From contig SXHM01000290.1 in NCBI GenBank assembly GCA_005773695.1, positions 1 to 5,937 of the forward strand: a stretch of 5,937 nt of DNA, in the 5' to 3' direction. A program made the translations under genes and the position numbers. This stretch comes from Bacteroidota bacterium (GTDB taxonomy: Bacteria; Bacteroidota; Bacteroidia; SXHM01). The notes beneath the pieces were generated by a model. It did not search any database, was not told the origin of the DNA, and saw only the letters and a list, made by a program, of their open reading frames with translations. Each line of letters starts with the position of its first letter. Position 1 is the stretch's first letter. Shown in pieces: positions 3,735 through 5,937 of this stretch.

Positions 3735-3770
3735 GGGATAAATCAAATGATACTTCTGAAACCCTGCTTC

Positions 3771-3801
3771 AAACTGAATATTTTATAAAATCCTTCAGTT
3801 T
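3771..3801. repeat. Inverted repeat upstream of lhr
   Basis: AAACTGAA (3771-3778) is perfectly complementary to TTCAGTTT (3794-3801). The 15-base spacer contains the AT palindrome ATTTTATAAAAT (3780-3791), so the unit could extend into a longer imperfect hairpin. Neither strand has a T-run directly after it, so it does not look like an intrinsic terminator. It lies 60-90 bases upstream of the lhr start, where an operator would be plausible. Function unknown. Confidence 0.55.
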
Positions 3802-3909
3802 ATTGACATATAAAATTTGAAGCAAATTAAATTGTGACAGCCCTTGTAGACTGGAAACACTCCTAAGATTGTGAAATGTTCCTGCAATTGCAAAGACTGA
3901 TATTAATAC

Positions 3910-3982: not shown

Positions 3983-4010
3983 TTTGTTTTCGGAAAACCT
4001 TTTATATTTG
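3983..4010 (+). promoter_or_regulatory. Bacteroidota-type promoter of the his operon
   Basis: TATATTTG at 4003-4010 matches the -7 consensus TAnnTTTG exactly, and TTTG at 3983-3986 fits the -33 element. The spacing between them is 16 bases, slightly shorter than usual. Transcription would start around 4015-4018, only a few bases before the leader-peptide ATG at 4022, so the mRNA would be almost leaderless. Its position directly before the attenuator supports the call. Confidence 0.7.
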
Positions 4011-4021
4011 CAGTCTTATAA

Positions 4022-4072
4022 ATGAAAATAGCTAACACTCATCACCACAGCCATCATTCACACAAAGTGTGA
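4022..4072 (+). CDS. hisL: Histidine operon leader peptide
   Basis: This is a 16-residue open frame, MKIANTHHHSHHSHKV, followed by TGA. Residues 7-14 contain six histidines (codons CAT, CAC, CAC, CAT, CAT, CAC), a density expected only of a his leader. The peptide itself probably has no function: it is a sensor, in which a ribosome stalls on the His codons when charged histidyl-tRNA is low. A Bacteroidota promoter lies just before it, an overlapping antiterminator/terminator pair just after it, and hisG 74 bases beyond its stop. There is no Shine-Dalgarno sequence, and the predicted 5' leader is only a few bases, so initiation may be leaderless or nearly so. The analogous E. coli HisL is also a 16-residue peptide and has seven consecutive His. 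Homology by sequence cannot be claimed at this length; function is inferred from composition and position. Confidence 0.92.
   Translation: MKIANTHHHSHHSHKV
4058..4072 (+). promoter_or_regulatory. Possible pause hairpin at the end of the his leader frame
   Basis: TCACAC (4058-4063) and GTGTGA (4067-4072) form a perfect 6-bp stem with an AAA loop, ending exactly on the leader stop codon. In classical attenuators an early hairpin pauses RNA polymerase until the first ribosome catches up, and this element is in the right place. A three-base loop is tight and the stem is coding sequence, so it may be coincidence. Confidence 0.45.
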
Positions 4073-4074
4073 GA

Positions 4075-4109
4075 GGATAGCTATTGTATACTATACAATG
4101 AGGGCTTCC
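4075..4109 (+). promoter_or_regulatory. Antiterminator hairpin of the his attenuator (predicted)
   Basis: The segment folds into a stem of 13 pairs: 4075-4077 with 4107-4109, 4079-4082 with 4103-4106 (one U:G), and 4083-4088 with 4094-4099. The loop is 4089-4093, U4078 is bulged, and GAG at 4100-4102 forms a bulge. The core is the near-perfect palindrome ATTGTATA-C-TATACAAT (4083-4099). The fold uses the 5' arm of the terminator (4100-4106), so the two structures exclude each other. It starts three bases after the leader stop codon. A ribosome finishing the leader would therefore cover its 5' arm and let the terminator form, while one stalled on the first His codons would leave it free. Confidence 0.7.
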
Positions 4110-4134
4110 CATGATGGTTAGCCCTCTTTTTTTT
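4100..4134 (+). terminator. Intrinsic terminator of the his attenuator
   Basis: GAGGGCT (4100-4106) and AGCCCTC (4120-4126) form a perfect 7-bp GC-rich stem, followed immediately by eight T (4127-4134). Two inner C:G pairs are also possible around the loop. It lies between the leader peptide and hisG, on the same strand and only 12 bases before the hisG ATG, so its role must be conditional termination. The 5' arm is shared with the antiterminator at 4075-4109. Confidence 0.92.
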
Positions 4135-4146
4135 AACAGAAACAAC

Positions 4147-5004
4147 ATGAACAAACTAAGAATTGCAATTCAGAAATCAGGCAGACTGCACGAAGACAGT
4201 ATAAGAATACTGCGCGAAGCAGGAATAGAATTCAATAACGGTATCAATAAATTAAAGTCAGAGGCGTTTAACTTTCCATGGGAAGTACTTTTTCTGCGAG
4301 ATGATGATATTCCGCAATATGTAGAAGACGGTGTAGCCGACATAGGAATAATCGGTCAAAATGTATTGGTTGAAAAAAACAAAAATGTTAAGACAATTAA
4401 TGCACTTGGGTTCGGAAAATGTCGTTTAAGCATTGCTGTTCCAAAGGCAAAGCAATTTAATTCCTCAGCCAATCTTAACGGAATGAAAATCGCAACTTCT
4501 TATCCCCATATTCTTGGGAATTATTTAAAAGAAAGCAATATTTCTGCTGAAATTCACGAAATCAGTGGCTCGGTAGAAATTGCACCCGGCATTGGACTTG
4601 CCGATGCCATCTGCGATCTGGTTAGTTCAGGAAGCACCCTATTCATGAATGGTTTAAGAGAAGCGCAGGTGATTTTCAAATCGGAAGCAGTGCTTGTTTC
4701 GGGAAATAATTTGTCAGCTGAAAAGCAGGAAATCATCAACCGATTAGTCTTTCGTTTAAATGCTGTTAAGAAAGCGAAGAATAACAAATACATTTTACTA
4801 AACGCACCAAATAACAAATTAGATGAAATCATAAAGATATTGCCGGGTATGAAAAGTCCCACTGTTCTGCCACTTGCAGAAGAAGGCTGGAGTTCTGTTC
4901 ATTCTGTAGTCAATGAAAATGATTTCTGGGAAATAATTGAAAACCTTAAACTAAATGGTGCACAAGGTATTCTGGTTGTTCCGATTGAAAAGATGATTCT
5001 TTAA
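4147..5004 (+). CDS. hisG: ATP phosphoribosyltransferase, long form (EC 2.4.2.17)
   Basis: HisG catalyses the first step of histidine synthesis in the cytoplasm: ATP + PRPP gives phosphoribosyl-ATP + pyrophosphate. The 285-residue protein begins MNKLRIAIQKSGRL, as the family does. It carries RDDDIP (51-56), DIGIIGQNVL (65-74), KIATSYPH (114-121), SGSVEIAP (140-147) and the PRPP-binding segment GLADAICDLVSSGSTL (150-165). Residues from about 211 on, starting with NKYILLNAP and ending in VVPIEKM, form the ACT-like regulatory domain of long-form enzymes. It should therefore be feedback-inhibited by histidine and not need HisZ; E. coli HisG has 299 residues. I chose the ATG at 4147: the in-frame ATG at 4111 lies in the attenuator terminator loop and would add 12 residues the family lacks. 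There is no clear Shine-Dalgarno sequence. Expression should depend on the upstream histidine attenuator. Confidence 0.98.
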   Translation: MNKLRIAIQKSGRLHEDSIRILREAGIEFNNGINKLKSEAFNFPWEVLFLRDDDIPQYVEDGVADIGIIGQNVLVEKNKNVKTINALGFGKCRLSIAVPKAKQFNSSANLNGMKIATSYPHILGNYLKESNISAEIHEISGSVEIAPGIGLADAICDLVSSGSTLFMNGLREAQVIFKSEAVLVSGNNLSAEKQEIINRLVFRLNAVKKAKNNKYILLNAPNNKLDEIIKILPGMKSPTVLPLAEEGWSSVHSVVNENDFWEIIENLKLNGAQGILVVPIEKMIL

Positions 5005-5005
5005 A

Positions 5006-5937
5006 ATGAAAATCGTTATCAATCCTGACCAACAGCATCAGCAGGCACTAATTGTCCGACCATATTTTGATTCAACTTCACTTCATACCAGCGTTTTAGA
5101 AATAATAGATAACGTGAAAGTAAATGGCGACAAAGCTTTACGAGAATATGGACTACGTTTTGATAAAACCGAACTCAATGAGCTTCAGGTAAGTGAAAAA
5201 GAATTCTCGGAAGCAGAACAACAAATTTCTGAAGAATTAAAAGAAGCTATCAAAGAAGCAAAAAGGAATATCTCATCCTTTCACACAGCTCAAAAAGAAG
5301 AAGAAAAAATTATAGAAACATCTTCAGGAGTATTTTGCTGGCGTAAATCTGTGGGAATTGAAAAAGTTGGATTATATATTCCTGGTGGCTCTGCACCATT
5401 GTTTTCAACTGTTCTGATGCTAGCAGTTCCAGCAAACATTGCTGGCTGCAAAGAAATTATTTTGTGTTCACCTCCGGGAAAAAATGGCAAGATTCATCCT
5501 GCGATTTTATATGCAGCAAAACTATCCGGAGTAAAAAATGTATTTAAAGTAGGCGGTGCTCAGGCGATTGCTGCCATGGCATTCGGAACAGAAAGTATAC
5601 CTTCGGTATACAAAATCTTTGGCCCTGGAAATCAATATGTAACTACTGCCAAGCAACTCATAAACTCAAAAGGAATTGCAATAGACATGCCGGCTGGTCC
5701 ATCGGAAGTGCTTGTTTTTGCTGACGATACATGCATTCCAGCATTTGTTGCAGCAGACCTGCTGTCACAGGCAGAGCATGGTGCAGACAGTCAGGTAATT
5801 CTTGTTTCAAATTCTCAGAATGTTGTTGACAATGTATTGACAGAATTGAATAAACAACTTGCTGTTTTGCCGCGAAAAGATATAGCAGAAAAAGCTTTGA
5901 TAAACAGTCTGGCAGTAATTTTTGATAAAACTAATAA
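5006..5937 (+). CDS. hisD: Histidinol dehydrogenase (EC 1.1.1.23), C-terminus cut by window edge
   Basis: HisD is a zinc-dependent cytoplasmic enzyme. It carries out the last two oxidations of histidine synthesis, L-histidinol through histidinal to L-histidine, using two NAD+. The 310 visible codons are about 70 percent of the usual 430 or so. Family segments are VGLYIPGG (121-128), KVGGAQAIAAMAFGT (181-195), FGPGNQYV (205-212), DMPAGPSEVLV (227-237) and LLSQAEHGADSQV (252-264). By alignment with E. coli HisD, Q255 and H258 match the zinc ligands Q259 and H262. The catalytic Glu-His pair and the remaining zinc ligands would lie just past the right edge, so their presence cannot be checked. 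The ATG is one base after the hisG stop, which implies one mRNA and probable translational coupling. Further his genes are likely downstream. Confidence 0.98.
   Translation, partial: MKIVINPDQQHQQALIVRPYFDSTSLHTSVLEIIDNVKVNGDKALREYGLRFDKTELNELQVSEKEFSEAEQQISEELKEAIKEAKRNISSFHTAQKEEEKIIETSSGVFCWRKSVGIEKVGLYIPGGSAPLFSTVLMLAVPANIAGCKEIILCSPPGKNGKIHPAILYAAKLSGVKNVFKVGGAQAIAAMAFGTESIPSVYKIFGPGNQYVTTAKQLINSKGIAIDMPAGPSEVLVFADDTCIPAFVAADLLSQAEHGADSQVILVSNSQNVVDNVLTELNKQLAVLPRKDIAEKALINSLAVIFDKTN

Follow-up and report, generated by a model that had tools for sequence, protein, structure and literature searches.

What governs the his operon carried by the window, that is, the whole stretch of 5,937 nucleotides from a Bacteroidota bacterium that was analysed here, in which a short His-rich open reading frame precedes hisG and hisD? 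The initial annotation proposed ribosome-mediated attenuation, a reading that is now supported by the anatomy of the leader, its conservation, compensatory base changes and the fold behaviour of its RNA. The window very probably holds a classical ribosome-mediated transcription attenuator of the his operon, with a His-rich leader, an intrinsic terminator found in both sequence and folding, and an exclusive antiterminator that ribosome stalling frees in folds, with exceptions. The pairing logic of segments 1:2, 2:3 and 3:4 is that of the trp attenuator and is common to both systems, although His codons here take the place of Trp codons and, unlike in the trp system, a Shine-Dalgarno-type start is not expected in Bacteroidota. 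Ribosomes of this phylum do not recognise Shine-Dalgarno sequences, according to PMC9976891.

Relatives were obtained by a HisG search of a genome collection, from which the best 80 of 230 loci were kept, two of them (L021 and L055) without upstream DNA. The window group comprises the GTDB genus and family of genome G001, with seven genomes, five of which carry hisG.

Architecture of the leader region

The features of the region are collected in Table 1. The leader peptide described in the initial annotation, 16 codons with six His within eight, is present at 4022–4072, and all six His codons lie inside 4040–4063 (CAT CAC CAC AGC CAT CAT TCA CAC). Sequence and folding likewise confirmed the claim that a terminator (4100–4126 and eight T), mutually exclusive with the antiterminator, stands directly before hisG.

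Table 1. Coordinates of the attenuator region and its genes in the window
Feature	Position	Strand	Evidence or remark
Putative -33 element of the Bacteroidota promoter, TTTG (predicted)	3983..3986	+	
-7 box, TATATTTG, fits TAnnTTTG (predicted)	4003..4010	+	box match
hisL-like leader ORF, MKIANTHHHSHHSHKV	4022..4072	+	ATG 4022, stop 4070-4072 (UGA)
1:2 hairpin, arms 4049-4063 and 4067-4082	4049..4082	+	folding alone
2:3 antiterminator, 14 pairs	4075..4109	+	folding; appears in stalled-ribosome folds
3:4 intrinsic terminator, 4100-4126 with U8 tract 4127-4134	4100..4134	+	folding; compensatory changes in relatives
hisG, ATP phosphoribosyltransferase (controlled gene)	4147..5004	+	Pfam PF01634 1.3e-53, PF08029 2.8e-29
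hisD, histidinol dehydrogenase, continues past window end	5006..5937	+	Pfam PF00815 1.1e-117

For the terminator, the 33-nt stretch 4097–4129 folds at -16.3 kcal/mol (z -4.34), with none of 200 shuffles equally good. A simple terminator scan of the window does not have 4100–4126 on its list, presumably because that scan admits loops of 3–8 only. For the antiterminator, the annotated position (4075–4109) was borne out and the pair count was not, since 14 pairs rather than 13 were counted. It folds at -9.8 kcal/mol (z -1.98), with 7 of 200 shuffles equally good, and its inner-shuffle z is -0.80. Across the 79 loci native antiterminators were moderately better than swapped halves (-16.4 vs -14.7), a modest effect in the right direction, and z fell below -1.5 in 39 of them.

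A third hairpin, 1:2, folds alone at -11.6 kcal/mol (z -3.62; 1/200 shuffles equally good). Its 5′ arm lies in the Ser-His-His-Ser-His codons, and its 3′ arm takes in the stop codon together with most of segment 2. The hairpin would complete the 1:2, 2:3, 3:4 scheme. Folded without a translating ribosome, the window, L001 and L115 favour this hairpin, and L002, L003 and L113 favour another fold. The 113-nt fold of 4022–4134 prefers to pair 4028–4034 with 4078–4084 over the 1:2 hairpin. The first of these stretches, ATAGCTA, was considered as segment 1 and set aside, because its letters are not kept in L001–L003, L113 or L115, while three of the six group members form the 4049–4082 hairpin when folded untranslated; this choice is a judgement rather than a proof.

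The short distance between terminator and gene invites a different explanation, in which the leader ribosome governs access to the hisG start and leaves transcription alone. The hisG AUG lies only 12 nt 3′ of the U tract, as such translational attenuation could use. However, the terminator hairpin and the U8 tract that follows it both end 5′ of the hisG start, folding of the stretch between the end of the leader and the hisG AUG leaves everything after the terminator hairpin unpaired, the AUG included, and the distance from terminator to the beginning of the HisG match ranges from 17 to 194 nt in 75 relatives. Translational attenuation is on these grounds unlikely, and transcription attenuation is retained as the reading of the window.

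Promoter and predicted RNA start

The RNA is predicted from sequence to start near 4015, about 7 nt 5′ of the leader AUG. The TTTG at 3983 is presumably the -33 element, and the -7 box assigned to the window is of the type that occupies -12 to -5 in the promoters mapped for Flavobacterium psychrophilum (PMC9723704, in the passages available). In 64 of 79 loci the strict motif TAnnTTTG occurs at most 28 nt from the start of the leader, compared with 10 of 404 background windows of 40 nt. With TTYG permitted, a relaxation adopted post hoc after inspection of the data, the count rises to 78/79 loci (all but L038), with predicted 5′ UTRs of 0–16 nt, and the background to 13/404. Leaderless mRNAs account for 5.5% of those with mapped starts in F. 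psychrophilum, again from passages of PMC9723704. A leader peptide that begins almost at the 5′ end of the RNA would couple ribosome loading directly to promoter escape. Both this very short predicted 5′ UTR and the 1:2 hairpin had been overlooked in the first reading, which also understated how widely the arrangement is spread; its core interpretation is supported. Upstream of the promoter, an intergenic 26-nt imperfect inverted repeat (73% complementary) spans 3765–3824 of the window.

Conservation of the leader peptide and terminator

The search for His-rich leaders and covarying stems in relatives was carried through, and for the leader its outcome was uniform: a leader with at least four His in eight codons precedes hisG in every one of the 78 usable relatives (from the best 80 of 230 loci). 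These leaders are 12–23 codons long and have ATG starts where available, only that of L038 being read from GTG. Similar His leaders are found in all five hisG-bearing genomes of the window group (L001, L002, L003, L113 and L115), where CAT and CAC interchange at the third position and a single His is replaced, by Asn in L115.

This conservation bears on the proposal that the structure is an ordinary intrinsic terminator, ending upstream transcription or a small RNA, next to an ORF that is His-rich by chance, a proposal that is very unlikely: the terminator is strong by itself, yet the upstream neighbour, an Lhr-like helicase gene, is divergent on the minus strand, and against the leaders in 78/78 relatives stand only 14 His-rich cases (at least four His in eight codons) among 8409 short ORFs elsewhere in the same 79 sequences (ATG, 8–60 codons, nested starts counted separately, both strands).

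For the terminator, a scripted search succeeded in 75 of 79 loci and in 78 of 1580 shuffled regions; the four misses (the window and L001–L003) arise because their 13-nt loop exceeds the limit of the script. When a sequence profile was derived from 75 relatives, with the window group excluded, it matched three of the six group members in the correct orientation, and weakly (E-values of 1.2e-5 for L113, 9.1e-5 for L002 and 9.2e-5 for L003), leaving the window, L001 and L115 unmatched. Several profile matches fell on the wrong strand, an effect of the near-palindromic terminator.

Covariation of the stems

Among 79 aligned sequences, 76 of them distinct, the RNAalifold terminator has 10 pairs, five of which show two-sided compensatory changes, and those of the outer three pairs occur across several clades; since the 3′ ends of the alignment were fixed by the terminator scan, pairing is favoured there. 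The 1:2 stem is paired in 85.5% of cells, compared with 27–51% in slid controls, and its covariation score of 0.143 is attained by 1/500 shuffles. Two-sided changes affect four of its seven pairs, a count that two of six slid controls match, and in two of the four changed pairs the two-sided change is carried by the window group alone. There the hairpin reads TCACAC/GTGTGA instead of CTTACC/GGTAGG and keeps its register with the stop codon.

The lower stem of the antiterminator is paired in 98.5% of cells (22–52% in slid controls) and shows two-sided changes in one of seven pairs, its score being reached by 11 of 500 shuffles. As this stem is nearly invariant, it carries little covariation signal. 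The comparison anticipated in the initial annotation was positive for the His-rich leader and for covariation of the terminator. Outside the window group, in Chitinophaga-type relatives, segments 1-2 (CTTACC..GGTAGGC) and 3-4 (GGCTTACC..GGTAAGCC) nearly repeat each other in direct orientation, and the alternative pairings are thereby plain to see.

Ribosome position and proposed mechanism

The dependence of pairing on the leader ribosome was modelled in eight loci, on RNA ending with segment 3 and with a ribosome that covers 9 nt past the A codon. Whichever His codon occupied the A site, segments 2 and 3 paired in all eight (6 or 7 pairs, 6 in the window), and with the ribosome at the stop codon this pairing was nil in 8/8 loci. 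Under other footprints the window lost the antiterminator at the first His codon (+6) and at the last His codon (+12, +15), and at +6 in the stop state three pairs remained in L002, L003 and L113. The geometry of leader and antiterminator put forward earlier stands in folds at footprints of 6–15 nt, with these exceptions at the first and last His codons.

In untranslated folds the antiterminator formed instead of the 1:2 hairpin in three of the eight loci (L002, L023 and L046), so that fail-safe termination is not general; within the window group the same was seen in three of six members. Equilibrium folds of the whole stretch gave the terminator in every ribosome state of the window and in most states elsewhere, with exceptions in L046 and L080. 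Since the terminator wins at equilibrium, the switch has to work kinetically, like that of known attenuators.

From these features we infer translation of the leader, an RNA start just upstream of it, termination before hisG, a response to histidine and a role for the 1:2 hairpin. Briefly, RNA polymerase would start at the predicted position, about 7 nt 5′ of the leader AUG, and a ribosome would begin the leader at once. When charged His-tRNA is ample, this ribosome would reach the UGA stop and cover segment 2 (4075–4082), whereupon segment 3 would pair with segment 4 and transcription would stop near 4134, inside the U tract. A shortage of charged His-tRNA would stall the ribosome on the His codons, so that it masks the 5′ arm of hairpin 1:2 and segment 2 stays free; segments 2 and 3 would then pair before segment 4 exists, and hisG-hisD would be transcribed. 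If the ribosome is absent, the 1:2 hairpin may favour termination.

Relation to known attenuators

The mechanism itself is already known, being of the his/trp type, and it is well supported that the attenuator in the window is a new instance that Rfam does not recognise. The enterobacterial his attenuator, represented by RF00514 His_leader, is generally known. It likewise places a His-rich leader and competing antiterminator and terminator before hisG (PMC9413887, available passages), but differs from the window, which gives no RF00514 match up to E 5 and has a very short predicted 5′ UTR. In ten other loci only L142 matches RF00514, at 36 bits against a gathering score of 49. With the His_leader cut-off reached in none of the 11 scanned loci, annotation pipelines probably miss many such leaders. 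A Thr_leader match of Rfam lies over the His leader region of L004 (2316–2432; 32.5 vs 55 bits, below the cut-off), which indicates that attenuator models resemble one another. The sole Rfam match in the window, to a snoRNA model (E 2.7, 3762–3895), was taken as chance.

The same scans bear on the possibility of another His sensor on the same leader, either a T-box or a protein repressor. Control of his genes by such means is described for Firmicutes and other groups in the passages seen of PMC9413887, but T-boxes are absent among Rfam matches of the window up to E 5 and of the ten other loci up to E 1; a sensor of this kind has very little probability as the explanation of the leader, and a repressor could act additionally to the ribosome-mediated attenuator.

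Aside from enterobacteria, his attenuators of Firmicutes have a His-rich leader followed by antiterminator and terminator (PMC9413887, PMC2965389, in part); they belong to a different phylum, and the likeness is one of architecture. An AUG that coincides with the RNA start or adjoins it, as predicted here, also occurs in the leaderless leader peptides of Streptomyces lividans, although these belong to a different phylum (Actinobacteria) and concern other amino acids, and RNA starts were mapped there and are predicted here (PMC8079986, in the passages available). Closest in phylogeny is F. psychrophilum, a member of the same phylum, for whose amino-acid operons 'strong clues' of upstream leader-peptide attenuation have been reported; the his operon is unnamed in the available passages of that source (PMC9723704). 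Leader-like short ORFs are mentioned for Bacteroides thetaiotaomicron in a passage of PMC7366714. In PMC8305728, which treats the his genes of the Bacteroidota superphylum, 'leader' occurs nowhere and 'attenuation' once, in the introduction. No description of a Bacteroidota his leader was found in the literature covered, namely titles, beginnings of abstracts and main-text passages in a collection with few subscription journals. A comparative study of 2010 by Lopatovskaya and others may cover Bacteroidetes. The window adds a testable his attenuator to a phylum for which the literature, as far as covered, only hints at such control.

Distribution and variants in the phylum

HisG is present in 332 of 395 phylum genomes. 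A sample was formed from 110 of 150 listed places, one of them too short, which were chosen by best HisG scores and are hence biased, and which include G001 and other kin of the first relative set. In this best-scoring sample an ATG leader with at least four His in eight codons was found at 83 of 109 places, and on reverse strands at 0/109. Predicted 5′ UTRs of these 83 leaders are at most 16 nt in 27 and 17–32 nt in 25, with no box in 31, so that a near-leaderless start is not the rule across the phylum.

A terminator was detected by script behind 57 of the 83 leaders and in 22 of 83 reverse-strand regions, a control that is inflated because terminators are nearly palindromic. The remaining 26, including L084, L086, L097, L104, L105, L116, L124 and L127–L129, have no scripted terminator, and their post-leader stretch is rich in C (0.246) and poor in G (0.118) relative to that of the 57 (0.169 and 0.166; p ~1e-9, uncorrected for relatedness). 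In the same terminator-free leaders, C minus G is 0.034 upstream vs 0.128 downstream (p 2e-4). These leaders are possibly a Rho-dependent or translational variant, the Rho type being a guess.

An exact search for the segment 2-3-4 pattern gave 30 matches in 29 of 298 genomes from the order of G002, and one match with the reversed pattern as control; the pattern is strict and misses most genomes of that order. Twenty-six of the 30 matches lie 20–543 nt before hisG on the same strand. At L196 the match is accompanied by a His leader and the contig ends, and the match at L225 looks like chance. L208 and L213 combine the module with Lys/Arg-rich leaders before a class I/II aminotransferase gene. 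Among homologue loci of this aminotransferase, 27 of 30 were readable, with gene starts placed by a crude motif, and one of the 27 (L247) supplied a third case of the Lys/Arg-leader module. Of the best 25 NCBIfam models, none reached its cut-off with the aminotransferase of the Lys/Arg loci. The modules at L208, L213 and L247 are possibly re-coded copies of the his attenuator.

A broader view, which we advance tentatively and with rather less than even confidence, is that attenuation by His codons upstream of hisG arose early in Bacteroidota and extends across the phylum. It would exist in at least three designs, namely a terminator with a near-leaderless start (the window and its Chitinophaga kin), a terminator with a longer 5′ UTR, and a terminator-free, C-rich and G-poor form like a Rho loading site, in addition to the module re-coded to Lys/Arg leaders before an aminotransferase gene.

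A minor observation concerns other amino-acid pathways of the window group. In G001, G399, G400, G402 and G403, matches to leuA and trpE are partial and weak, and three of five PF04715 matches in the trpE search lie barely above the cut-off (23.2–25.4 vs 23 bits). By these matches, the group may lack the synthesis of leucine and tryptophan and yet keep its his genes.
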